In this document: positions 2,304 to 48,327 of the stretch, piece after piece | Layout: every line of letters begins with the position of its first letter | How positions within the stretch are numbered: the stretch's first letter is position 1 | NCBI GenBank assembly: GCA_005223075.1 | Contig: NJBO01000001.1 | Span: 248,001 to 312,000 of the forward strand | Direction: 5' to 3' | Origin: a candidate division TA06 bacterium B3_TA06 | Lineage (GTDB): Bacteria > Hydrothermota > Tepidihabitantia > B3-TA06 | Length of the DNA: 64,000 nt | The notes under the pieces: model-generated | Told to the model about the DNA's origin: nothing | The model's input: the letters and a program-made list of their open reading frames with translations, nothing else | Database searches by the model: none | Program-made: the position numbers and the translations under genes

Positions 2304-4558
2304 ACCTTTTACTGATCCTCGGTCTTGTTGCCTTACCCATAGGTGAGGTCCGGGTTTTGCCCTCAGGGGTGGATGCAAATTTGATCATCTCGCTTGCGGA
2401 ACTTAACCCTGATATGCCTTACAGTGACGAGCTTGCATCAAAGGCGGTCCGCAGGCTCTATTCTACAGGCTACTTTGATTACGTAGCCGTAGACACCACC
2501 CTCCTCGAGGAAAAGGTCCAGGTCACGATACAGGTAGAACAGCCTCCAAGACTCGAGCGGATAGATATCGTAGGCAACCGGAGGTTGAAGACCAAAGCCA
2601 TCCTGAAGGAACTCGAAGCCGATTCAGGCACGGTACTCACAGCACGTCAGCTCTTTGATTGGGAACGCAAGATACGCGAACAGTACAAGAAGAAGAACTA
2701 TCTCTTGGCCAAGGTCTCAACGAAGCTGATTGAAGGCGAGAGGCCGGGTTATGCGGTCGCGCGAATCGAGATAGAGGAGGGCCGGGGTGTAAAGATTTCA
2801 AGCATCTCCTTTGAGGGCAACGAGAATGTTTCCGAGCAGAAGCTCAAGCGAAAGATGAAGAACCGCTCGAGATGGTTCATCATTCGGTCAGGCCGCTTCG
2901 ACGAGAAGAAGTTCAAGGAAGACATTGAGCGCATAGAGGCGTACTACCACGACAGGGGGTGGATAGACTCCGAGGTTACAGAGACCGATCTGCCTATAGA
3001 CTCGCTCGGTAACCTCGATATCGTTATGCACATCGATGAGGGGCGTCGTTACTACACCGGTAACTACTCTTTTGATGGACGTGAGGTCATTGCAGAGTCA
3101 ACCCTTACAAAGGCGGTGGTCCTGGAGGAGGCCAAACCCTACAGCCTTACGCGGGCCCAGGTTTCTCTTGAGAGAATCCGCCGTGCTTACTGGGAGCAAG
3201 GCTACATCTACGCGGTTGTGGACCCACTCGAAAGCCTCCGTGAGGATACAGTTGATGTTTTGTATCGTATTCGTGAGGGTGAACCGGCACGGGTCAGGCG
3301 CGTGGTGATAGGGGGCAACCGCAGTGTTCGAGAGAACGTAATCCGCCGCCAGATCATACTTCTGCCCGGCTCGATCTTCAAATACTCAAAGGTGGAGCGC
3401 AGTCAGCGTAATATCTTTAACCTGGCTCTGTTCAGCGACGTTCGGTTTTATCCAGAGCCTTTGGAAGAGGGGGAACCCGATATCGATCTTGTGTTCGTAG
3501 TCGAGGAAAAACAGTCCGGTCAGATCGGAGCGGGAGTGACCTTCAACGCCTCGGAAGGCATCACGGGTTACGTGAAGATCGCTCACCCGAATGTGTTCGG
3601 CGGGGCTGAGAACGGCCGTCTGCTTTTCGAGAAGGGCACAAAGAAAACCCAGGCTTCGATCGGCCTTACCGAGCCCTGGCTCTTTGATACGCCTATCCTG
3701 CTGGGCGGGGACCTTTACTATACTACACGACAGTACGACCTCCGTGATGCCCAGGCTACCGCATACAATAAACGCTCCCTGGGCGGCTCTGTTCAAACCT
3801 CAACCCCCCTGCCACTTGACTATACGCGAGGCGGGGTAACATTAAGGGTTGAGAGGGTGTTCATTGACTCCGTTAGAAATCACCCATTCCCCTCCGATCC
3901 GATCCTTGGATTCGATCCCGCTTCCTATCCAAAGACCACAATCTCTGCAACCTTCGGCCTTGTGCGCGACTCGCGAGACTACTTCATCAATCCCTCATCA
4001 GGTTCATACTTCAGCGAGTCAATTGAGTTCGCAGGCGGGCCCCTTGGCGGGGATATTAACTTCATCAAGGAGATACTTGACGTTCATATTCACTTCCCCA
4101 TAGCCTGGGAGCGCAGGATCGTCTTAACGCAGAAGATGCGTCTGGGCTACGTAACCGGCTACACCGCTGCGGACACTGTCCCTCTCTACGAGCGATTCCG
4201 GCCTGGAGGAACATCCTACGACGGTTTTGTGCGCGGATACGATGACCTTTCGCTCGGAACAGTGTCTGGGGGAGCGCTGCTTGGCGGGCGAGCGATGACC
4301 GTCTTCAATACCGAGCTTAAGGTGAAGGTAATCCCGCAGCTTGCATTGATAGCCTTCTTCGACGCAGGTAATGCATGGGAGAGGATAGACCAGGTAAACC
4401 TTTCGGAGCTTAAGAAGGGCGTGGGCGCGGGTATAAGGTTCGAGATCCCGTTTATGGGTGTTCTGGGATTCGACGCTGGATTCGGCCTTGACTACCCCAA
4501 AGGTACTACGTTCTCCCAGGCTTTCCGCCCCCACTTCCAGATAAGCCGCACATTCTGA
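2300..4558 (+). CDS. bamA: BamA outer-membrane assembly factor
   Basis: 752 residues. A short hydrophobic signal peptide (about residues 1-17) is followed by POTRA repeats across roughly residues 18-400 (recurring [10 protein letters not shown] / [10 protein letters not shown] / VVIGGNRSV segments) and a C-terminal 16-strand Omp85 barrel. The barrel contains the RPGG...FVRGYDD signature (the VRGF/Y motif of loop 6) and ends in phenylalanine, the usual signal for its own insertion. By family role it folds and inserts beta-barrel proteins into the outer membrane, so the cell is diderm. It starts inside the clpC stop codon (ATGA). Coupling of a Clp unfoldase gene to bamA is unusual but may only reflect compact gene packing. 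Confidence 0.95.
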
Positions 4559-5526: not shown

Positions 5527-6888
5527 ATGCAGGTAGAGGTTTACGACACGCTTTCGCGCCGTAAAAAGGCATTGGAACCACGCGACAATATGGTCCGCAT
5601 CTATCACTGCGGGATGACCGTTCAATCACGTCCTCACGTGGGGCATCTGCGCGGCTACATCGTGATGGACGCGCTGCGGCGTTTTCTACGCTTCAAGGGC
5701 TACGATGTGAAGCTGGTCCAGAACATAACCGACATAGACGACAAGGTTATAGAGAAATCACGCGCCGAGGGCATCGACTGGCGCATGCTTGCCGAGCGCA
5801 ACACCGAAGAGCTTCTTCGAGTAACCGATGCTTTGAACATAGAAAGACCCACGGTTATGCCGCGCGCCACCCAGCATATAGAAGAGATAGTGGACCTTGT
5901 CGCCAAGATCATCGAGAAAGGTCACGCCTACGAATCCGCAGGCGATGTTTACTTCGACGTGCGTTCCTACCCCAAATACGGCAAGCTTTCTGGCAAGAAC
6001 ATAGACGACCTTGAGTCCGGTGCGCGGATCGAGCCCAGTGAGAACAAGCGCGACCCTCTGGATTTCGCGGTCTGGAAGGCTGCAAAGCCGGGCGAGCCTT
6101 ACTGGTACTCGCCCTGGGGCAAGGGACGACCTGGCTGGCACATCGAGTGCTCGGCAATGTCGGCACACTATCTGGGGTCGGAGTTCGACCTTCATGCGGG
6201 CGGCGAGGACCTGGTATTCCCTCATCACGAGAACGAGATCGCCCAGTACGAGGCGGCCACCGGCAAGGGGTTTGCAAAGGCGTGGATGCACGTCGAGATG
6301 CTCAACCTGCGCGGTGAGAAGATGAGCAAGTCCACCGGCCATCTTGTCGTGGCAAGCGACGTCATTGAGGCCTACGACCCCAACGCGTTGCGAATGTTCA
6401 CCCTGCGCGTTCACTACCGCGCGCAGACCGAGTACAGCTTAGAGGGCATGGACGAAGCCCGCTCCGCGTGGGAGCGCATCACTATCTTCCTCTCCGCCGC
6501 ACAGCAGGTTTTGGGTGAACCTGCGCTTGCTACCGAGTATCCCAAACTGGATGCAGTTTTGTCCGACGACTTCAACACACCCAAGGCGATGGGCCTGGTC
6601 TTTGACCTGGTGCATCAGGGCAACGAGGCGCTCGCTTCGGGTGACAAGGACAAGCTGGCAGAGGCTACCGCAAAGCTAAACCTTGCTTTGCAGATACTTG
6701 GGTTCAAACCCAGGCGTGAGGAGGGCGTGCGGGATGTCAAGACCCTTCTTGATCTGCTGGTACGTTTCCGTAGCGAGCTTCGAGCGGCAAAAGAATTTGA
6801 GTGGGCGGATAAGCTGCGCGAGATGGTGCAGGAATCCGGCCTGGTGATCGAGGATACAAAAGAAGGCACCCGGATAAGATTCAAATGA
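5527..6888 (+). CDS. cysS: cysteinyl-tRNA synthetase
   Basis: 453 residues, the usual length. The class I HIGH motif appears as HVGH in YHCGMTVQSRPHVGHLRGY, with the zinc-ligand segments GWHIECSAMS and HHENEIAQ and the KMSKS loop as KMSKSTG. It charges tRNA-Cys with cysteine in the cytoplasm. The ATG at 5527 has no SD and sits six bases after a strong -10 box, suggesting a leaderless mRNA. The stop codon overlaps the deoC ATG (ATGA), so deoC is translated from the same message. Nothing essential is missing. Confidence 0.97.
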   Translation: MQVEVYDTLSRRKKALEPRDNMVRIYHCGMTVQSRPHVGHLRGYIVMDALRRFLRFKGYDVKLVQNITDIDDKVIEKSRAEGIDWRMLAERNTEELLRVTDALNIERPTVMPRATQHIEEIVDLVAKIIEKGHAYESAGDVYFDVRSYPKYGKLSGKNIDDLESGARIEPSENKRDPLDFAVWKAAKPGEPYWYSPWGKGRPGWHIECSAMSAHYLGSEFDLHAGGEDLVFPHHENEIAQYEAATGKGFAKAWMHVEMLNLRGEKMSKSTGHLVVASDVIEAYDPNALRMFTLRVHYRAQTEYSLEGMDEARSAWERITIFLSAAQQVLGEPALATEYPKLDAVLSDDFNTPKAMGLVFDLVHQGNEALASGDKDKLAEATAKLNLALQILGFKPRREEGVRDVKTLLDLLVRFRSELRAAKEFEWADKLREMVQESGLVIEDTKEGTRIRFK

Positions 6889-7580
6889 GCAAGCCTGAAC
6901 TTCCTAAATCCGCGGAACAGATGGCGCGGATGATAGATGCGTCCATGCTGAGGCCCCAAGCCACACGCTCAGACGTTGAAAGCTTCCTTGAGGAGGCGAT
7001 CCTCTACAACTTCGCCGCTGTGTTTCTGCATCCGGCGTGGGTCGGTGACGCGCGCCAGATCATCAAGGGCTCACCTGTAAGGCTCGGCATAGCAATAGGT
7101 TATCCGCACGGGGCACATCTTACAGAAACCAAACTGCTTGAGATCGATCAGGGTCTTGATTTGTGTGCCGATGAGTTCGACATGGTTGCCAACATCGGGC
7201 GTTTGAAGTCGGGCGAGGGCATCGCGGTTGCCAAGGAGATAGAGCGCTGCCGCCGCTCGATTGAGGGCAAGGTGTTCAAGGTAATAATCGAGACCGGCTG
7301 GCTTAGTGACGATGAGAAGCGGCTGGCTGCGCGCATCGTGGCTGACGCGGGTGCAGACTTCGTGAAGACCTCTACAGGTATCGTAGCCCCTGGCGCCACG
7401 GTTGCCGACATAAAGCTCTTATACGAGGCGGTGGACGGCTCCATCGGTGTCAAGGCTTCAGGCGGGATAAGGGCTTTTGATCAGGCGATGGAGATGATTG
7501 CAGCCGGTGCTTCCCGCATCGGCACCTCAGCAGGCCGGGCGATAGTGGAAGAAGCGAAGCAGAGGTTTTCATCAAAGTAG
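6885..7580 (+). CDS. deoC: deoxyribose-phosphate aldolase
   Basis: 231 residues. It matches the DeoC TIM barrel: FDMVANIG (the proton-relay Asp), FKVIIETGWL, the Schiff-base lysine in GADFVKTSTG, the second lysine in GVKASGGIR and the phosphate-binding RIGTSAG. It splits 2-deoxyribose-5-phosphate into glyceraldehyde-3-phosphate and acetaldehyde, salvaging deoxynucleosides. The ATG overlaps the cysS stop; the pairing has no obvious functional link. A GC-rich hairpin followed by a short T tract at 7593-7625 probably ends the transcript. Confidence 0.93.
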   Translation: MSKPELPKSAEQMARMIDASMLRPQATRSDVESFLEEAILYNFAAVFLHPAWVGDARQIIKGSPVRLGIAIGYPHGAHLTETKLLEIDQGLDLCADEFDMVANIGRLKSGEGIAVAKEIERCRRSIEGKVFKVIIETGWLSDDEKRLAARIVADAGADFVKTSTGIVAPGATVADIKLLYEAVDGSIGVKASGGIRAFDQAMEMIAAGASRIGTSAGRAIVEEAKQRFSSK

Positions 7581-40252: not shown

Positions 40253-40459
40253 ATGAGACAGGTTGTTATCTATCGAGGTGAAGACGAATACTGGGTGGCC
40301 GAGTGCCCCAGTTTGCCCGGCTGCGTTTCTCAAGGGAAAACCAAGGAAAAGGCGGTAGCCAACGTCAAGGAAGCAATCGAGGGATACATCGAGGCACTCA
40401 AAGAAGACGGCCTTCCTGTCCCGGAAGAACGCTTCGAGACAATCGTTGTCGCGGTGTGA
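40253..40459 (+). CDS. hicB: HicB-family antitoxin
   Basis: 68 residues: the partial-RNase-H-like HicB fold (YRGEDEYWVAECPSLPGCVSQGKTKEKAVANVKEAIEGYIEAL). This short version has no C-terminal DNA-binding domain. It is translated first, with hicA overlapping its stop by the GTGA arrangement. HicB neutralises HicA; the gene order antitoxin-toxin is one of the two known for this system. The message would begin at its ATG. Confidence 0.9.
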   Translation: MRQVVIYRGEDEYWVAECPSLPGCVSQGKTKEKAVANVKEAIEGYIEALKEDGLPVPEERFETIVVAV

Positions 40460-40677
40460 TCAAGCTTCCCCAAATCTCCGGTCAAGAATGTGTCAAGGCT
40501 TTAGGGAAGGTCGGATTCATTGTCAAACGGCAGCATGGGAGTCACATAATCCTGCGGCGTGAGGAACCTTTTGCCCAGGTGGTGGTTCCCGATCACAAAG
40601 AGTTGGATAAAGGCACGCTGCGTGCGATTATTCGATACGCTGGCTTGAGCGTTGAGGATTTTCTGAAGCTTCTTTAG
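40456..40677 (+). CDS. hicA: HicA-family mRNA interferase toxin
   Basis: 73 residues from GTG 40456, overlapping hicB by four bases. It has the dsRBD-like HicA fold with the catalytic-histidine segment KRQHGSHIILRR and the typical VVVPDHKELDKGTLRAIIRYAGLSVEDFLKLL C-terminus. HicA cleaves mRNA. A longer frame running through hicB is only the +1 shadow. The system lies in a pocket with other defence-type genes. Confidence 0.92.
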   Translation: MIKLPQISGQECVKALGKVGFIVKRQHGSHIILRREEPFAQVVVPDHKELDKGTLRAIIRYAGLSVEDFLKLL

Positions 40678-40744: not shown

Positions 40745-41056
40745 TTAATGGATCAAGATCACCTTTTGAGTGGTCGCTGACGCGTCACCCTCAATCCTGA
40801 TGAAATAGACGCCGGCCCCGTAACCCTCACCCCAGGAGACGGTGCCGCCCGTCTGGGGTACATGCAACTCGTCAACCTGACGGCCTGACGGGTCGTAGAC
40901 CCGAAGCGTCAAAGATGGCGATGCCTCGTTGAACATCAGCACAATTTCACGACCTACCGGAACCAGCACCTGCCAGTCTTGTGTTACGGGCGGTGTTACG
41001 GGTTCCTCAACCGCCAGCAGCCCCAGGGAATCGGTTTTGATGAGGTTAAGTGAATA
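40745..41056 (-). pseudogene. C-terminal remnant of a FlgD-tailed secreted protein
   Basis: A minus-strand frame of ~103 codons encoding only a linker (SLNLIKTDSLGLLAVEEPVTP) and a FlgD-like tail (LTLRVYDPSGRQVDELHVPQ, GAGVYFIRIEGD, TTQKVILIH). There is no signal peptide or functional domain upstream; the frame meets a stop at 41057-41059, exactly where the HEPN gene ends. I read it as the 3' end of a secreted-protein gene truncated when the AT-rich HEPN gene arrived. Confidence 0.65.
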
Positions 41057-41906
41057 CTATTTTCTCTATCTCTTTTTGATTAGGTACTTTTCCCTTTTCA
41101 GTGAATTTACATAAAAGACGTGATAGCAGTTTTCGAACCTCTTTTATATGTTCCACAAGTTTCTTTTTCGAGATTTCTTCACCATGCACAACCGTCGATC
41201 TAATGTCATATAATTGCTTTACCCTATCATATAGATTTTGACGTATCTCACCACTTGGTTCAAGTACTGAAGCAATGTAAGAGGATAGTCTGAATCTAAG
41301 CTCATGATCAATACTGAAAAGAGCTTCAATTCCTGACCAAAGAGTTGCAACCATCATTCTTTCGCTTCCTTCAAGATGACATCTTGCAAGAGAATCTACG
41401 GCTAAATGGAAATTATTCAAATCTAGGTATAGATGAAAAAACCTTAAAAAATTGGATCCAATCCAATTGAGGTCTGCTCTAGTGAGTTCTACAGGTCCAC
41501 TTATTCTGCGTGCTCCTGGAACATCTTCAAGTAATTCTACTTTACAACTGTTGTCCTTGATTGAACCTATTTCCCCCCAAGAGTGATCTGCTAAAGCTGG
41601 GACAAGGATTTCTGCCAGCGTACGAACACGTACGAGATATACAATTACTTGACCTAGACGGAAAGTTCCAACACTTAAACCCGGGAGTTCCACAACCGCT
41701 AGTTCGTGACTTATTGCTTTAGAGTAACGAGCAACTGCATGGAATTTGTCAGTCTCCAACTTATCAAGTGCTTGAGCAAGTTCATCTGTTCCAGGGGGGT
41801 TCACAACTCGTTTCAGAACCCCTAGCTCACCTAATCTAATCTCTGGCACTGTGGTCTTCAAACCGAGTATGGCAAAGTATCGGTAACTTTTGGCGGAATT
41901 TTCGAT
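41046..41906 (-). CDS. ApeA-like HEPN-domain protein, possible anti-phage RNase
   Basis: 271 residues if started at TTG 41861, or 286 if started at the ATC 41906. The C-terminal ~100 residues (LWSGIEALFSIDHELRFRLSSYI ... LYDIRSTVVHGEEI) match the Apea-like HEPN domain with the R-x4-H catalytic motif RSTVVH. Such proteins are predicted or shown to be RNases in abortive-infection defence. The N-terminal half is unrecognised. SD GGAGGT lies at 41916-41911, four bases before the ATC codon and ~50 from the TTG; no ATG or GTG is available in between. AT-rich relative to neighbours. The gene's 3' end meets the truncated FlgD-tail remnant. Confidence 0.7.
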   Translation of the reverse strand: MENSAKSYRYFAILGLKTTVPEIRLGELGVLKRVVNPPGTDELAQALDKLETDKFHAVARYSKAISHELAVVELPGLSVGTFRLGQVIVYLVRVRTLAEILVPALADHSWGEIGSIKDNSCKVELLEDVPGARRISGPVELTRADLNWIGSNFLRFFHLYLDLNNFHLAVDSLARCHLEGSERMMVATLWSGIEALFSIDHELRFRLSSYIASVLEPSGEIRQNLYDRVKQLYDIRSTVVHGEEISKKKLVEHIKEVRKLLSRLLCKFTEKGKVPNQKEIEKIVFT

Positions 41907-41926
41907 TTAAACCTCCAAGTTACATT

Positions 41927-41954
41927 ATAATATTACCTTGAGACTGCTTGTCAA
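41927..41954 (-). promoter_or_regulatory. HEPN gene promoter
   Basis: Minus strand: TTGACA (41954-41949), 16-bp spacer, TATTAT (41932-41927). Only about ten bases separate the -10 box from the SD. Confidence 0.65.
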
Positions 41955-41999
41955 GCTCTCACCTAGCTTTCCACCCATAGGCGAGGAACTCTTACCTAC

Positions 42000-42027
42000 T
42001 TGCATCCTTCCGATAATCAAATATACT
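42000..42027 (+). promoter_or_regulatory. acp-kbl promoter
   Basis: TTGCAT (42000-42005), 16-bp spacer, TATACT (42022-42027). Confidence 0.55.
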
Positions 42028-42087
42028 ACTGGGCTATTTGTGAGGGGGAAGGTTGTTTGAAATTAAAAACAAAAGCAAGGAGCAGCA

Positions 42088-42351
42088 ATGCTTGATGAAA
42101 AGCAGTTGAAAGACACGGTTCTTGCCTACGTCAAGGACGAGTACGTCGAAGACGAGGAAGAAGCCGATGAACTTACCCCGGACACACCGCTCATCTCAGG
42201 TGGGATAGTTGACTCCTTCTCGATGGTCTCACTCAAGGTGTTTTTAGAGAAGCGCTACCAGATCCAGATCCCGGACGCAGACGCCACACCACAGTCGTTC
42301 GACACCGTGAACAAGATCGTGGAGCTGGTTAAACGTTTCAAGGGGGAGTAG
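42088..42351 (+). CDS. acyl carrier protein
   Basis: 87 residues; SD AAGGAG. Four-helix ACP fold with the phosphopantetheine serine in GGIVDSFSMVSLKVFLEKRY and a strongly acidic N-terminal half. It is not the housekeeping AcpP (which reads GADSLDTVE). The stop is directly followed by the kbl ATG with no gap, so it is a dedicated partner. It probably carries the acyl group used or produced by the following enzyme. Confidence 0.85.
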   Translation: MLDEKQLKDTVLAYVKDEYVEDEEEADELTPDTPLISGGIVDSFSMVSLKVFLEKRYQIQIPDADATPQSFDTVNKIVELVKRFKGE

Positions 42352-43599
42352 ATGGCATACAGCGATAAGGTTCGCGAGCACTACAAAAAAACCATAGCCG
42401 AGATCCGCAATGGGGGTCTTTTCAAGGAGGAGCGGTTCATCCACTCCCCGCAAGCAGCGGACATCAAGGTGGAGTACCCGGAAGGTGCAGAGCTTACCAG
42501 CCTCATCAACATGTGCGCCAACAACTACCTGGGACTTTCCTCGCATCCTGAGGTGATAAAGGCCGCACACGACGGGCTTGATTCCCGGGGCTACGGGATG
42601 AGCTCGGTGCGCTTTATCTGCGGCACCCAGGACATACACCGCGAGCTGCAGGACAAGCTGACAAAGTTCCTGGGCACCGAGGACACGGTGCTGTTCCCAT
42701 CGTGCATGGACGCCAACGCCGGCGTGTTCGAGGCTATACTGGGCGAGGAGGATGTGATCATCGCCGATCGCCTGGTGCACGCCTCGCTGATTGACGGCAT
42801 CCGGCTCTGCAAGGCGCAATACGATTCGTTCAAGCACATGAACATGGATCATCTTGCGCAGAAGCTCGAGATGCATCAGGACAAGCGCATCCGGTTGGTG
42901 GTGACCGACGGCGTCTTCTCAATGGACGGCGACTTTGCACCGCTCGATAAGATGGTCGAACTTTGTGAACGCTACGATTCCATGATCCTGCTGGATGATT
43001 CCCACGCCACCGGATTCATCGGCAAGACCGGAAAAGGCACGCACGAGCACTTCGGTGTTGTTGGTAAAATCGATGTCATTACCACGACCCTGGGCAAGGC
43101 TTTGGGCGGGGCGTCAGGCGGATGCGTCTCAGGCCGTGCAGAGATCGTTGAGATGTGCAAACAGCGCGCGCGTCCCTATCTATTCTCGAACACCATGCCT
43201 CCGGTGATCGTTGCCGCGGCCTCGAGGGTGATGGATATAATCTCACAGACCACCGAGCGCCGCGACAAGCTGGAGCAGAACACAAAATACTTCCGGGAGA
43301 AGATGACCGAGGCCGGGTTTGACATCCGTCCTGGCGAGACGCCCATCGTGCCGGTTATGCTCTACAACGCCCAGCTCTCTCAGGACATAGCCCACGACCT
43401 CTACGCCGAAGGGATCTACGTGATAGGTTTCTTCTATCCGGTGGTGCCGCAGGGCCAGGCGCGTATCCGCTGCCAGCTCTCCGCCGCTCACGAGCGCGAG
43501 CACCTGGACAAGGCGATTGCCGCATTCAAGAAGATCGGCGCCAAGCACGGCATCCTGGGCCTTAAGAAGAAGGAGATCATCGAGAAGTTCGGGGTATAG
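42352..43599 (+). CDS. kbl: 2-amino-3-ketobutyrate CoA ligase (glycine C-acetyltransferase)
   Basis: 415 residues. PLP-dependent alpha-oxoamine synthase: NMCANNYLGLSSHPE, SVRFICGTQDIHRELQ, VVTDGVFSMDGD, DDSHATGFIGKTG, the PLP lysine in TTTLGKALGGASGG, and VIGFFYPVVPQGQARIRCQ. The SVRFICGTQD and GFFYPVVP strings are nearly identical to Escherichia coli Kbl, so it is Kbl rather than BioF or serine palmitoyltransferase. It cleaves 2-amino-3-ketobutyrate with CoA to glycine and acetyl-CoA. The directly fused ACP gene upstream is unusual for Kbl. tdh and acsA are 4-8 kb upstream. Confidence 0.92.
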   Translation: MAYSDKVREHYKKTIAEIRNGGLFKEERFIHSPQAADIKVEYPEGAELTSLINMCANNYLGLSSHPEVIKAAHDGLDSRGYGMSSVRFICGTQDIHRELQDKLTKFLGTEDTVLFPSCMDANAGVFEAILGEEDVIIADRLVHASLIDGIRLCKAQYDSFKHMNMDHLAQKLEMHQDKRIRLVVTDGVFSMDGDFAPLDKMVELCERYDSMILLDDSHATGFIGKTGKGTHEHFGVVGKIDVITTTLGKALGGASGGCVSGRAEIVEMCKQRARPYLFSNTMPPVIVAAASRVMDIISQTTERRDKLEQNTKYFREKMTEAGFDIRPGETPIVPVMLYNAQLSQDIAHDLYAEGIYVIGFFYPVVPQGQARIRCQLSAAHEREHLDKAIAAFKKIGAKHGILGLKKKEIIEKFGV

Positions 43600-43600
43600 T

Positions 43601-43638
43601 GCTCCTTTCGTCGCCAGAGGCGACGAAAGATCGCAGGA
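43601..43638 (+). repeat. GCTCCTTT-hairpin-AAAGATCGCAGG element
   Basis: Stem CGTCGCC-AGA-GGCGACG between shoulders GCTCCTTT and AAAGATCGCAGG. It begins two bases after the kbl stop. Confidence 0.7.
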
Positions 43639-43640
43639 TT

Positions 43641-43675
43641 AAGAGAGGCCAGCCGGAGGCTTGACCTCTCTTTAC
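43641..43675. terminator. hairpin between convergent genes
   Basis: AAGAGAGG, then AGCC-GGA-GGCT, then CCTCTCTTTACT: a long interrupted stem with a short T tract. It abuts the stop of the minus-strand gene and may end kbl transcription. Confidence 0.55.
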
Positions 43676-44247
43676 TCGATTTTGCCGAGGATTCCTTCCG
43701 CAGTTTTAAGTCCCTTGCCTTCAGAAATTTCAGAGGCACTGATCCAGTAAAGAGTGGTATATCCTATCTCTATAGCTTCTTCAACTGTTAGACGCCACTC
43801 ATATTTCTGTCCTCTTTTGGTGTACTCCGAAAGAGGTATGACAATGTTTATCGCAGGGAAAGCTTTACGCCATTTCCCTTTAACCCACTTAATTGTGATT
43901 TCTATCTGTTTATCTTTTAAAGGCTTATTCTTAATGGGAACTAAACACTCCTTGCCACTCATTGTAATTCTTTCCGCATCCACCTCAATATTCTTCAAAT
44001 CATCTTTCAATCTATCCCTCAAAATTTTACCTAATCCATTATACTTTAAGCCAATGCGAACCAAAAAATCCCTAAGCGCCTCCTCTCCTTTTATCATCCA
44101 CTCGATTCCTATTGCACTTTCTTCTTTTCTTACCATGTTATACTTCTTATTAATGAGACGAACGTTGCCGCCCACCTGCAAGGAAATCTTTACTTCATCG
44201 GCAACCATTTCCATATCCACCCTTTCTTCAGATTTTAGATTGCTCAT
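43672..44247 (-). CDS. unknown partner of the modification gene (candidate restriction enzyme)
   Basis: 191 residues from ATG 44247, which overlaps the stop of the modification gene (ATGA). A longer frame from 44280 lies inside that gene and is not needed. The sequence is lysine- and isoleucine-rich (e.g. IKNKPLKDKQIEITIKWVKGK). I recognise no domain and see no clear PD-(D/E)xK, HNH or GIY-YIG motif. Coupling to a DNA methylase makes a restriction endonuclease the obvious possibility, but that is inference. Low GC, like its partner. Confidence 0.6.
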   Translation of the reverse strand: MSNLKSEERVDMEMVADEVKISLQVGGNVRLINKKYNMVRKEESAIGIEWMIKGEEALRDFLVRIGLKYNGLGKILRDRLKDDLKNIEVDAERITMSGKECLVPIKNKPLKDKQIEITIKWVKGKWRKAFPAINIVIPLSEYTKRGQKYEWRLTVEEAIEIGYTTLYWISASEISEGKGLKTAEGILGKIE

Positions 44248-45710
44248 CGAACTATCCCTTCGACTTCCTCTTCTATGCACTTAACAGCCTCCCTGCGAAT
44301 CATTTCTGCGTTGTATCTGTTCGACTCTTTTTCTCTCACCATCTCTAAGTAAAATTTCTTTATTTTATCCTTCAATGATGCTGAAGGAATAGGTATTAGA
44401 AAATTTTTTAAAAGCGTTTGAGGGATGGTAACCGTCCCGACCCCTCTTTTCATTCTATTGATCTGAGATACCCCGTATTTGGATTGGAGATAGAATGCGA
44501 GATAATATGCTAACTCTTCTTCATTCGTCCTAATTATGTATATGTAATCGTCTGCTACGCCGCATTCGGAAGGATGGGTAATAACTGCAGCCCTTCCTAT
44601 GCACCCTACACCTACCCGTACAAAAAGCAAATCTCCCACTCTAACATGGGCCTTATGCTTATACATTTTACTGAAGTGGCCCACATACCTCCCATCTCTA
44701 CTAAGGTCAACTCCTAGTTGGGTAATTGTTTTCGCCGAGATAAAGGGAATCCCCTCGCGAGAAAAGGCCCTGTTTTGAGCATATTCTGTCTTGCCACCAA
44801 ACATCTCAGAGACGAGATCTTTCAATCTTTTTACGCTCTGGTTGGCTTCCCCGAAAGGCAGATCAGTGATATAAAACTCAGGATATAAAGCATCTACATG
44901 AGGATTGACCCAAAAGGCTATAGGCTTCGTCGAGTCCGTACCTTTGCGGTATGAATTAAGAATCACCGGCAGTTCCTTTAAACTCTCGGCGACGCCCATA
45001 AAGACCCTTTCTGGTCCCTTGCCTTTTTTAGCAAACAAGATGCAGGTCTTAGAGGTTGTATTTTGGCTACTATTGAAAATGCCCCTAGGCAAAGACACAA
45101 CCCCTATGAGTGAGGTTTCTTTCAAAAGAAACTCTCGAACATACCTGAGTGGAAGATTGGAAAAAATGCCGAAAGGCAACACAATCCCTATAACGCCCTC
45201 TGGGGAAGCAAGGCGAATAAATTTTTCCAAGAAGAGAATTTCGACAGCCTGACTCCGCTTGCTCCTTCCCAACTTGTAACCTTGCAGTATGCGACAATTT
45301 TTTACTCTTCCATATTTTGAACTAAATGGAGGATTTCCTACGACTACGTCGAAATTTCCCCCTGACTTATTAAGCAAACCATCTTCGTTCAGGACGTCAG
45401 CATTAGTTTTTAGCTCTTCGGCTATTAACTTGACTACTTCGCAATCAATATCAATGCCTACTACTTCTTTAAACTCTCTTGCAATGAGTCCTTTAAGGAA
45501 AACACCGTCTCCACATGCGGGGTCAATCGCTTTGTCCTTTTTATTATTGGTCACTGAAATAAAATCCAAAACAAAGTCCACTACTTCTCTTGGAGTGAAA
45601 AACTGCCCCAAGACCTTTTCTTTCTTAGAAAAATGACTATTCTCTTGTTTACTTTCCGTACGTTGGGAAAGGCTTTTAACCTTCAAGGGCGACAGAAAAG
45701 ACATCCTCAT
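44244..45710 (-). CDS. N6-adenine DNA methylase fused to a specificity (TRD) domain
   Basis: 488 residues. The N6_Mtase part has GQFFTPREVVDFVL (residues ~35-48), SAM motif AIDPACGDGVFL and catalytic motif IV VVGNPPFSSKYG (~123-134). From ~residue 290 on, a type I HsdS-like target-recognition domain follows (RLKDLVSEMFGG, IPFISAKTIT, IPQTLLKNFLIPIPS, then a coiled coil). This is an M-S fusion without HsdR or the N-terminal nuclease of type IIG enzymes. The next gene is translationally coupled and may be the nuclease. Clearly AT-richer than mutS and kbl on either side: likely acquired. Confidence 0.85.
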   Translation of the reverse strand: MRMSFLSPLKVKSLSQRTESKQENSHFSKKEKVLGQFFTPREVVDFVLDFISVTNNKKDKAIDPACGDGVFLKGLIAREFKEVVGIDIDCEVVKLIAEELKTNADVLNEDGLLNKSGGNFDVVVGNPPFSSKYGRVKNCRILQGYKLGRSKRSQAVEILFLEKFIRLASPEGVIGIVLPFGIFSNLPLRYVREFLLKETSLIGVVSLPRGIFNSSQNTTSKTCILFAKKGKGPERVFMGVAESLKELPVILNSYRKGTDSTKPIAFWVNPHVDALYPEFYITDLPFGEANQSVKRLKDLVSEMFGGKTEYAQNRAFSREGIPFISAKTITQLGVDLSRDGRYVGHFSKMYKHKAHVRVGDLLFVRVGVGCIGRAAVITHPSECGVADDYIYIIRTNEEELAYYLAFYLQSKYGVSQINRMKRGVGTVTIPQTLLKNFLIPIPSASLKDKIKKFYLEMVREKESNRYNAEMIRREAVKCIEEEVEGIVR

Positions 45711-45722
45711 TACCTCTAAGAC

Positions 45723-45750
45723 ATTATAGAGGGAGTTAGCATCTTGTCAA
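45723..45750 (-). promoter_or_regulatory. modification-gene promoter, full consensus
   Basis: Minus strand: TTGACA (45750-45745), 16-bp spacer, TATAAT (45728-45723), GAGG ahead of ATG 45710. It lies in the 46 bp between the mutS stop and this gene. Confidence 0.75.
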
Positions 45751-45756
45751 CATCTT

Positions 45757-48327
45757 TCATCCCTCCTTCAGTTTTTCCTGCCAGGCAATGAGCTTCTGCA
45801 ATGCCTCGATGGGTGAAAGGGAGTCGAGGTCAAGCTCGGCAAGCTCGGCGGCGATCTCGTCCTGAACCGCACCGGTGAAGAGCCGAAGCTGAACCTTCTT
45901 CTCGGTCAAAATCTCGTCTATCGAGACCGTCTCCCCTCCGTAGATGCGTTCCAGGAGAAACCGTGCGCGCTCCACCACAGCCTTTGGCAGACCGGCCAGC
46001 CTGGCCACCTCGATCCCGTAGCTCTGATCCGAGGGTTCGTAGCGCAGCTTGCGCAGGAAGAGGACGCCGTCTTTGGTGCGTTTTACCGAGAAGCTTGCGT
46101 TGCGCAGCCCCGCAAAGTGCGAGGCGAGCTCGGTCAGCTCGTGGTAGTGGGTGGCGAAGAGGGTCTTGGGCCGAAGCTCGGGCGAGCTGTGAAGGTACTC
46201 GATTACGGCCCAGGCGATGGCCATCCCGTCGTAGGTGGATGTGCCCCGGCCTATCTCGTCAAGGATCACCAGGCTTTTGGGCGTTGCCGAGCGCAGGATG
46301 TTTGCAGTCTCGGCCATCTCGGCAAGGAAGGTGGAGACCCCGCGGGATAAATCGTCTGAGGCTCCGATGCGGGTGAATATCTTGTCCACCAGACCGATGG
46401 AGGCCTTGCGGGCAGGCACGAACGAACCCATCTGGGCCATGATCACCGCCAAAGCCACCTGCCTGAGATAGGTGGACTTGCCTGACATGTTGGGCCCGGT
46501 GACCAGAAGAACCATGTTGTCTTTCGCATCCAGCCGCACATCGTTCGGAATGAACCGCTCTGCAAGAAGCTTCTCCACCACCGGATGGCGCGAGGAGGTG
46601 ATACGAACCTCATCGTCTTCGGTGATTTGAGGTTTAACATACTGATTCTCACGTGCCGCCTGAGCCAGGGAGCGCAACACGTCCACCTCGGCCATCACGT
46701 CGGCCAACGCCTTGAACGAACGCGAGCGCTCGGCAAGCCTGGCACGGAAGGAGATAAACATCTCGTACTCTATTATCTTAGAACGCTCCTCTGCGGTCAA
46801 AATCTTCTGCTCAAGCTCCTTTAGTTCGGGTGTGAAGAAGCGTTCGGCTGAAACCAGTGTCTGCTTGCGGATGTAGTGGGACGGAGCTTTGGAGGCCAGA
46901 CTACGGGGTATCTCGATGTAGTAGCCGAACACGCTGTTGTAGCCGACCTTGAGTTTATTGATACCTGTGGCGGATCGTTCCTTTAGCTGAAGGGCAGCGA
47001 TATGCTTTCGGGCGTCATGGGTAAGGCTGCGAAGCTCGTCTAATTCTTCATTGATACCCTTGTTTATGATTCCCCCTTCCAACAGAACCACAGACGGATC
47101 ACCGATTATGGTTTGCTCAATCTCGGTTGCCAGCTTGCTAAAATCCTCTATCCTTTCAGCAAGTCCTTTCAGTAGATTGGATTGGGCCTTCTTTAGCTCC
47201 CCCTTAATCTCTGCACCTAACCTCAAGATAGCTCCCAACCTTCTCACCTCCCTTGGGTTTGCGCGCTGGGTCGCGATCTTTGAAACCAGCCGCTCCGGGT
47301 CCCCTGTTTCTTTGAGAAGTTCTCCTAGATTGTCGGATAGCTCCTTGTTTGTAAAAAGTTCTTCTACGGCATCCAGCCGGGCGTTGATCTCCTGTCTGTC
47401 TCGCAGTGGAAAGATGAGCCAGCGCCGCAGGAGCCGGGTGCCCGGAGGGGTAAGGGTGCGGTTAAGGACCGAGAAAAGAGAACCTTCGGCGGAACGGTCC
47501 CGCTGGCGCTGGAGCAGTTCCAGGTTGCGCTGGGTGAACTCGTCTACAACGAGATAGTGGCCGCTGTCAAATACTCGTAAGCCCTCGATGTGCGGCAGAA
47601 CGCTCTTCTTCTGCTCGATGAGATATGAGAGCACCGCACCCGCGGCCCGCAGCGCCAAAGCACGCCCCTCCAATCCCAAACCTTCCAGGGTGGCCACCTT
47701 GAAGTGATCAAGGAGTCTCCCCTTGGCAAGCTCCTCATCGAATAAATAGCCAGCTACCGGCTGAATGCTTGTCTCAAATGAGCAAGGTCGCCATCCCTCC
47801 TCTTCGGCCAGGAGCAGTTCACGGGGCGAGACCTTGGCAAGGTGCTCTTCTGCCTCTGAGATCCGAGCCTGGCCGCATACGAACTCGCCGGTGGATACGT
47901 CGGCATAGGCGATTCCGGCTTTGCCCTCGACTTTGACCACCGCCGCCAGGTAGTTGCCCGCTGACGCATCAAGCATCTCCTCGCTGGCGATGGTTCCAGG
48001 GGTGATGACCTCGGTAACGTCGCGTTTAAGGAGTTTCTTTTTGGGATCGGGAAGCTCTACCTGTTCGCAGATGGCCACCTTTAGCCCGGCCTTGACCAGC
48101 TTGGTAAGGTAGGCTTCGTAGCTTTTGACCGGAACACCTGCGAGAGGTATGCTACCTGAACTGCCGTATTGTCTGGAGGTAAGCGCTATTCCCAACACCC
48201 TCGCTGCGACCTTGGCGTCATCATACAGCATCTCGTAGAAATCGCCCATCCTGAAGAAAAGTAGCGCGTCAGGATAGCGCCGCTTGATCTCGTGATACTG
48301 TTTGAGAAGTGGGGTTAAGTCGGCCAA
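45757..48327 (-). CDS. mutS: DNA mismatch repair protein MutS
   Basis: 856 residues from TTG 48327. Mismatch-binding Phe-x-Glu region LLFFRMGDFYEML near residue 25-38; connector, core and clamp domains; ATPase Walker A VTGPNMSGKSTYLRQ (~606-620), Walker B SLVILDEIGRGTS and the signature ATHYHEL. It is MutS1, which recognises mismatches during replication. No mutL follows. It is the last gene of the miaB-lapA-lapB-SPOR-mutS string; six bases separate it from the SPOR gene's stop. Confidence 0.96.
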   Translation of the reverse strand: MADLTPLLKQYHEIKRRYPDALLFFRMGDFYEMLYDDAKVAARVLGIALTSRQYGSSGSIPLAGVPVKSYEAYLTKLVKAGLKVAICEQVELPDPKKKLLKRDVTEVITPGTIASEEMLDASAGNYLAAVVKVEGKAGIAYADVSTGEFVCGQARISEAEEHLAKVSPRELLLAEEEGWRPCSFETSIQPVAGYLFDEELAKGRLLDHFKVATLEGLGLEGRALALRAAGAVLSYLIEQKKSVLPHIEGLRVFDSGHYLVVDEFTQRNLELLQRQRDRSAEGSLFSVLNRTLTPPGTRLLRRWLIFPLRDRQEINARLDAVEELFTNKELSDNLGELLKETGDPERLVSKIATQRANPREVRRLGAILRLGAEIKGELKKAQSNLLKGLAERIEDFSKLATEIEQTIIGDPSVVLLEGGIINKGINEELDELRSLTHDARKHIAALQLKERSATGINKLKVGYNSVFGYYIEIPRSLASKAPSHYIRKQTLVSAERFFTPELKELEQKILTAEERSKIIEYEMFISFRARLAERSRSFKALADVMAEVDVLRSLAQAARENQYVKPQITEDDEVRITSSRHPVVEKLLAERFIPNDVRLDAKDNMVLLVTGPNMSGKSTYLRQVALAVIMAQMGSFVPARKASIGLVDKIFTRIGASDDLSRGVSTFLAEMAETANILRSATPKSLVILDEIGRGTSTYDGMAIAWAVIEYLHSSPELRPKTLFATHYHELTELASHFAGLRNASFSVKRTKDGVLFLRKLRYEPSDQSYGIEVARLAGLPKAVVERARFLLERIYGGETVSIDEILTEKKVQLRLFTGAVQDEIAAELAELDLDSLSPIEALQKLIAWQEKLKEG

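Follow-up and report, generated by a model that had tools for sequence, protein, structure and literature searches.

A two-gene cassette of an M.PabI-family methylase and a probable diverged HALFPIPE protein in a candidate division TA06 bacterium

Restriction glycosylases are a small and recent exception among restriction systems, which otherwise act by phosphodiester cleavage. For R.PabI, the excerpts of the literature used here name Y68, H211 and D214 as the catalytic residues (PMC7229829), which R.CcoLI conserves (PMC7806768), and describe R32 and E63 as stabilizing and recognizing the flipped guanine (PMC5059719) and as essential to cleavage (PMC10273834). The M.PabI family is given there as a gamma-type N6-adenine methylase with a C-terminal target recognition domain (TRD) (PMC4615327), its product as GTm6AC (PMC10273834), and a tail-to-tail arrangement of the methylase (M) and restriction (R) genes is reported for an archaeal lineage (PMC4615327). 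Among the genomes compared here, G608 encodes R.PabI, based on sequence comparison with PDB 2dvy, and its locus (L154) is apparently the type locus of R.PabI.

The locus described below lies in a stretch of 64,000 nucleotides (hereafter, the window) from the genome of candidate division TA06 bacterium B3_TA06 (G000; 2.41 Mb, 42 contigs, 95.8% complete). Its methylase has the domain order of the M.PabI system. The gene arrangement differs: M and R are tail-to-tail in L154, whereas in the window the partner gene is downstream of the methylase gene, in the same direction, and the two overlap.

The M.PabI-family methylase and the two-gene cassette

The first gene of the pair (44244..45710, minus strand) encodes a 488-aa gamma-type N6-adenine DNA methylase fused to a C-terminal HsdS-like TRD. 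Pfam detected N6_Mtase at residues 27-236 (E 1.8e-23), followed by Methylase_S at residues 293-450 (E 2e-6; 44361..44834, minus strand), which bears out the first-pass annotation of a modification enzyme combining these two domains. The motif NPPF at residues 126-129 (45324..45335, minus strand), which we take to be the methylase catalytic motif, is invariant across the four rows of the alignment. PADLOC assigned the protein to MTase_II (PDLC03311, 394 bits). Several other labels were considered and set aside. The scores for Type I, BREX and MADS methylases were far under those NCBIfam cut-offs, no nuclease domain as in Type IIG was matched by Pfam in the 488-aa protein, and a Type I system with separate HsdR, HsdM and HsdS does not fit a fused M and S with only two genes between the flanking genes.

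The methylase is a member of the M.PabI family. Across residues 17-484 it shares 48% identity (E 7.1e-114) with the methylase adjoining R.PabI in L154 (48% in the methylase part and 46% in the TRD part), and 55% with that of L105 from G578, a genome that has a standard R.PabI; TRD residues 290-460 are 65% identical to those of this R.PabI-paired methylase. Because M.PabI makes GTm6AC, the window methylase probably targets GTAC with the same product. The tetranucleotide GTAC occurs at 0.51 of its expected frequency in the window genome; it is equally depleted (0.54) in G001, where no methylase match was found, so the depletion gives this specificity no support and was discarded as a sign of it.

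The second gene (43672..44247, minus strand) encodes a protein of 191 aa counted from its ATG, or of 202 aa if translation begins at an in-frame GTG. Both ORFs begin and end exactly where the first-pass annotation had placed them, and the overlap it described between the methylase stop and the start of the 191-aa protein was recovered as the four bases ATGA (44244..44247, minus strand; ...GTT CGA TGA / ATG AGC AAT...), suggesting translational coupling. Directly 3' of the stop codon of the second gene is a terminator-like hairpin (43638..43671, minus strand; -23.3 kcal/mol, z -3.72). A run of 190 open codons has a chance of 1.3e-7 in random DNA of equal base composition. The whole cassette spans 2129 bp (43638..45766) and holds these two genes only.

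The cassette is flanked by genes that we presume, from their protein sequences, to be kbl and mutS. In G001 and G003, two relatives of the same genus, the kbl and mutS flanks align at 82-95%, and the interval between them is 628 bp and 594 bp, respectively, versus 2129 bp in the window; both cassette genes are absent together from it. The GC content in 500-base windows is 38-45% inside the pair versus 49-62% in kbl and mutS, and positions 41000-42250, further left, are likewise AT-rich. Given the aligned flanks, the shorter interval in both relatives and the GC dip within the pair, the pair, with no other gene, was either gained or retained as a single unit, and acquisition is the likelier of the two.

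The surroundings of the cassette are variable on the mutS side, where G001 and G003 have about 600 bp that contain no long gene, and G005 and G002 have about four other small genes each (loci L161 2620-5400 and L159 1-3160). About 3 kb from the cassette, the window encodes a HicB-like antitoxin (Pfam E 4.6e-10) and a HicA toxin (4.5e-19) at 40253-40677 on the plus strand, and an AT-rich gene of 271 aa at 41046-41861 on the minus strand has a very weak resemblance to HEPN_Swt1 (E 0.13).

Fold and residues of the 191-aa protein

The 191-aa protein matched no family in Pfam, NCBIfam or PADLOC, and its best match among PDB sequences had an E value of 0.49, in agreement with the earlier remark that it carries no usual nuclease motif. 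Among the 147 genomes of the phylum only weak matches were obtained besides its own gene (six other genomes at E <= 0.1), and no methylase was seen alongside two such matches (L002 and L006). No match at E <= 1 was found in G001-G008, the 22 genomes with related methylases yielded a single one (E 0.007, within a 582-aa frame), and none was found in plasmids or phages or confirmed in viral contigs.

Kinship with R.PabI is not visible to local sequence profiles. PF09522 gave no match in the window genome at E <= 10, either to the 191-aa gene or to any other HALFPIPE gene, the profile HMMs built here gave none to the protein at E <= 5, and the sole match of the A2 profile in this genome was the 191-aa gene, itself part of the query alignment. 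Homology to the R.PabI family was thus not detected by PF09522 or by profile, and an early by-eye alignment to R.PabI received no support from local profiles. In profile searches against its own shuffles, the protein came out at about rank 628 among 1921 reported sequences and rank 123 among 1932. Semi-global PSSM alignment gave a weak signal that depended on the settings: with a 12-sequence profile and four gap settings, the score of the protein was matched by 12, 117, 3 and 189 of 3000 shuffles, and by 111, 201, 35 and 240 when the degenerate copy L019b (see below) was added. With the 13 standard PabI members it was matched by 147, 1221 and 1207 of 3000, and with these plus L017b and L019b by 120, 682 and 443. 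The identity is 17% to R.PabI and 16-23% to relatives.

Structural models suggest the HALFPIPE fold, the curved antiparallel sheet seen in R.PabI. A single-sequence AlphaFold2 model, with no relatives supplied, was poor, with a pLDDT of 48.9 and a pTM of 0.39. The kinship with PabI had been proposed before this model was searched. Foldseek returned nothing at E <= 0.001 for it, and HALFPIPE or PabI entries were absent among the best 50 of 554 matches. VIA-align against 997 chains placed five R.PabI entries in rows 1-4 and 7 at Z 3.4-3.8, values below the range usual for kinship and tied, by the rule of the tool, with the unrelated rows 5, 6 and 8 (Z 3.4-3.5). These matches covered 76-77 residues, at about residues 91-168 of the model only. 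When 15 HALFPIPE sequences were included in the alignment, a second model reached a pLDDT of 73.5 and a pTM of 0.70. VIA-align matched 137-175 residues of it to seven R.PabI and R.CcoLI entries at Z 9.1-12.6, against 3.1 for the next row, and Foldseek also ranked R.PabI first (probability 0.97, TM 0.45), though only at E 0.011 and with an rmsd of 8.3. This second result is not independent and is partly circular, since the input alignment contained PabI. The two models have most of their secondary-structure elements in common. HALFPIPE proteins were not recognized among the best 50 matches listed from a viral structure library. These models make a far-diverged HALFPIPE-fold relative of R.PabI the most likely identity of the 191-aa protein. 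The first-pass annotation had named an unrelated fold together with methylase-free homologues as the outcome that would count against its proposal; this outcome was not seen, and the collections searched with the 191-aa protein yielded no close homologue.

Under the alignment to PabI proteins, the residues assigned to guanine recognition are kept and those assigned to catalysis are lost. R32, E63, W64 and I66 (R.PabI numbering) are invariant in all 16 aligned rows, including the 191-aa protein, where R30 (44158..44160, minus strand) aligns with R32, and EWMI at residues 49-52 (44092..44103, minus strand) aligns with E63-W64-Q65-I66. Y68, H211 and D214 are kept by 13 of 13 standard members (a set that leaves out the standard PabI of L017, the L155 near-copy and the three split genes), and the 191-aa protein has G, G and T at these columns, the first of them G54 (44086..44088, minus strand). 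The K154 column holds V, and the wedge residues P27/T28 fall in gaps. The loss of H211 is independent of the alignment, since there is no histidine anywhere in the 191-aa protein. The other losses, and the retention of R32 and E63, hold under the alignment. With the 13-member profile, 10, 7 and 4 of 3000 shuffles at three settings, and 0 of 146 control ORFs, retained R-E-W-I as the protein does. With a 15-row profile the four residues were kept at one setting (as in 9 of 3000 shuffles) and lost at two, and the match of R30 and E49 to R32 and E63 was accordingly absent at two of six PSSM settings.

The 191-aa protein would share with R.PabI and R.CcoLI the probable fold, the M.PabI-family neighbour expected of the family and, under the alignment, R32/E63/W64/I66, whereas Y68, H211, D214, K154, the wedge residues and a PF09522 match are found in those enzymes only. 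We do not class it as a restriction glycosylase, since the defining triad was looked for and found to be missing.

The explanation that we favour, with confidence a little better than even, is that the locus is a horizontally acquired RM cassette of the PabI type, with a far-diverged HALFPIPE protein in the restriction position that most likely binds GTAC without excision. The methylase would mark the adenine of GTAC and so protect the sites of the host, and a dimer of the 191-aa protein would grip the guanine of unmethylated GTAC or a related site, leaving the adenine unexcised, at least by the route that R.PabI uses. Binding without excision is suggested because R32/E63 are retained and Y68, H211, D214, P27/T28 and K154 are missing. 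The outcome would be a methylation-sensitive occupation of DNA, as a block or in regulation, and not cleavage; it may serve to block foreign DNA, to regulate the cassette or to protect against attack by R.PabI. The first-pass annotation had suggested a new type of restriction enzyme or another effector. An RM-type unit agrees with the evidence, and "new type" is too strong, since the methylase belongs to the M.PabI family and the 191-aa protein most probably descends from the same stock as R.PabI, whose fold is known.

An active enzyme descended from the HALFPIPE fold is an unlikely reading, in which a rebuilt active site would excise bases or cleave the backbone and the methylase would protect the host. 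The overlapping two-gene cassette that is present or absent jointly, and the ORF that remained open, speak for it, and R30 and E49 align with the two residues essential to R.PabI cleavage in the part of PMC10273834 used here. However, under the alignment the protein has none of Y68, H211, D214, K154 or the wedge residues, it contains no histidine, and no other nuclease family was recognized in it by Pfam, NCBIfam, PADLOC or PDB sequences. If the favoured reading of a GTAC binder or this one is true, an M.PabI-type methylase paired with a HALFPIPE protein lacking the known active site would imply either restriction-like systems that act by occupancy or a second chemistry on the fold.

Related methylases and their partners

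At E <= 1e-20 the methylase matched in five of the 147 genomes of the phylum, the window genome counted, and in none of G001-G008, which include the same-genus relatives. A single-sequence scan of genome contigs found no matches and an alignment-based scan found 65 loci. The partner census comprised 31 loci, namely 26 from the alignment-based scan (L013-L037 and L053) plus L012, L105, L154, L155 and L156, and includes some near-copies (L021 and L155). The other 39 loci from the scan and 19 loci on viral contigs, all more distant, lay outside it.

A PabI-family gene is nearby in 18 of the 31 loci, and in three of these 18 (L025, L028 and L053) it is split over two frames, possibly by assembly errors. 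A different partner, a protein of 178 aa, is found in five (L029 1849-2397, L030 5585-6157, L031 3156-3824, L033 2619-3155 and L034 3494-4027). The remaining eight have neither (L012, L013, L014, L026, L032, L035, L036 and L037); among these, L035 and L036 are partial matches and L012 and L037 are distant. The phylogeny of 27 methylases (L012, L028, L035, L036 and L053 left out) joins the window methylase with that of L013 (98/96), which is without a partner, and then both with that of L105 from G578 (91/93, under the starred level of the tool). All 16 PabI-paired rows fall in a set of 20 that includes the window methylase (94/91, also under that level), and those of the five 178-aa loci fall in a separate set of six (100/100).

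The 178-aa family occupies the place of R.PabI, and its members share SSRTLSDVIEK and GYDV...NIKT. Pfam gave no match for the two copies scanned. We assume that GYDV...NIKT resembles PD-(D/E)XK, and on this sequence motif the family is perhaps a PD-(D/E)XK-like nuclease. Like the 191-aa protein, it is small, lacks annotation and accompanies a methylase of this family, but the two have no meaningful similarity in sequence (L011 copy compared). In the distant locus L030, a kbl-like gene (6207-7421) also adjoins the methylase and 178-aa genes, as judged by eye against 42352-43599 of the window, which may reflect a hot spot or a coincidence.

Another reading, which we regard as rather unlikely, is that the 191-aa protein has no kinship with PabI and is a new restriction effector or accessory protein in the usual place of R.PabI, like the 178-aa family. 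It draws on the kinship being invisible to local profiles, on the different small protein beside related methylases in five of 31 loci, and on a case in H. pylori where R.PabI is replaced by an unrelated gene, as told in the available portion of PMC4615327. Against it, R.PabI ranked first for the single-sequence model, though tied with unrelated rows, the two models share most secondary-structure elements, and the retention of R-E-W-I at the default setting was matched by few shuffles (10 of 3000) and by none of the 146 control ORFs.

The partnerless L013, the closest methylase in the tree, is in turn among the observations that suit a decaying R.PabI remnant, retained by chance beside an orphan methylase. 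Decay of R next to an intact M is documented for the PabI family in the part of PMC10273834 used here, and the census holds both the three split PabI genes and a broken second copy in L154 (assembly errors again being possible). A remnant is nevertheless quite improbable as an account of the 191-aa gene, which has kept 191 codons open against the random expectation given above despite an identity of 16-23% to its relatives, has an intact start overlap and terminator-like hairpin, and under the alignment retains the recognition residues.

Apart from these partners, a second methylase of the N4/N6 type (frames of 227-294 aa) is found in six of the 31 loci (L015, L018, L019, L020, L024 and L105). 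It stands near R.PabI and the M.PabI-type methylase there, so these systems may have two methylases.

Degenerate HALFPIPE copies beside R.PabI

A clear and a probable HALFPIPE protein with altered catalytic residues were also found next to R.PabI genes. L017b (L017 5390-6148), beside a standard R.PabI, is clearly a degenerate HALFPIPE paralogue, matched by phmmer from a standard PabI at E 4.6e-8; it keeps R32/E63/W64/I66 and has D in place of H211 and V in place of D214. L019b (L019 6265-6882), beside an intact R.PabI, is a probable one, based on its position and an E value of 1.1e-6 in a one-sequence search (the census PabI profile was silent at E <= 1e-3). It keeps R32/E63/W64/I66 and H211, has a gap at the Y68 column and K in place of D214, and reads EWMI like the window protein. 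Both keep R32/E63/W64/I66 as the 191-aa protein does and have lost two of the three catalytic residues. They differ from it in that they accompany an intact R.PabI, whereas the searches of the window genome turned up no further HALFPIPE gene.

These copies allow a wider and still doubtful interpretation, in which HALFPIPE proteins would have been disarmed repeatedly and would act as methylation-sensitive GTAC binders, tuning R.PabI or, as in the window, working alone with a methylase. Copies beside R.PabI could, for example, be heterodimer partners that limit the attack to one strand, and the window cassette would be an epigenetic system of self and non-self discrimination based on binding and not on DNA damage.

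We found no description of a degenerate HALFPIPE component in the portions of the R.PabI literature covered. Several R genes in one locus are nothing new in themselves, since the excerpt of PMC10273834 already mentions a locus of Helicobacter muridarum that carries six M and four R genes or pseudogenes. In L154, the PabI profile recognizes three separate short frames between R.PabI and the methylase (2738-3281; E 1e-10, 7e-10 and 5e-6). By eye these resemble the intact L017b, and they look like a decayed second HALFPIPE gene. Because this decayed copy and the degenerate paralogues adjoin R.PabI genes, they suggest an occasional third component of an otherwise two-gene system.
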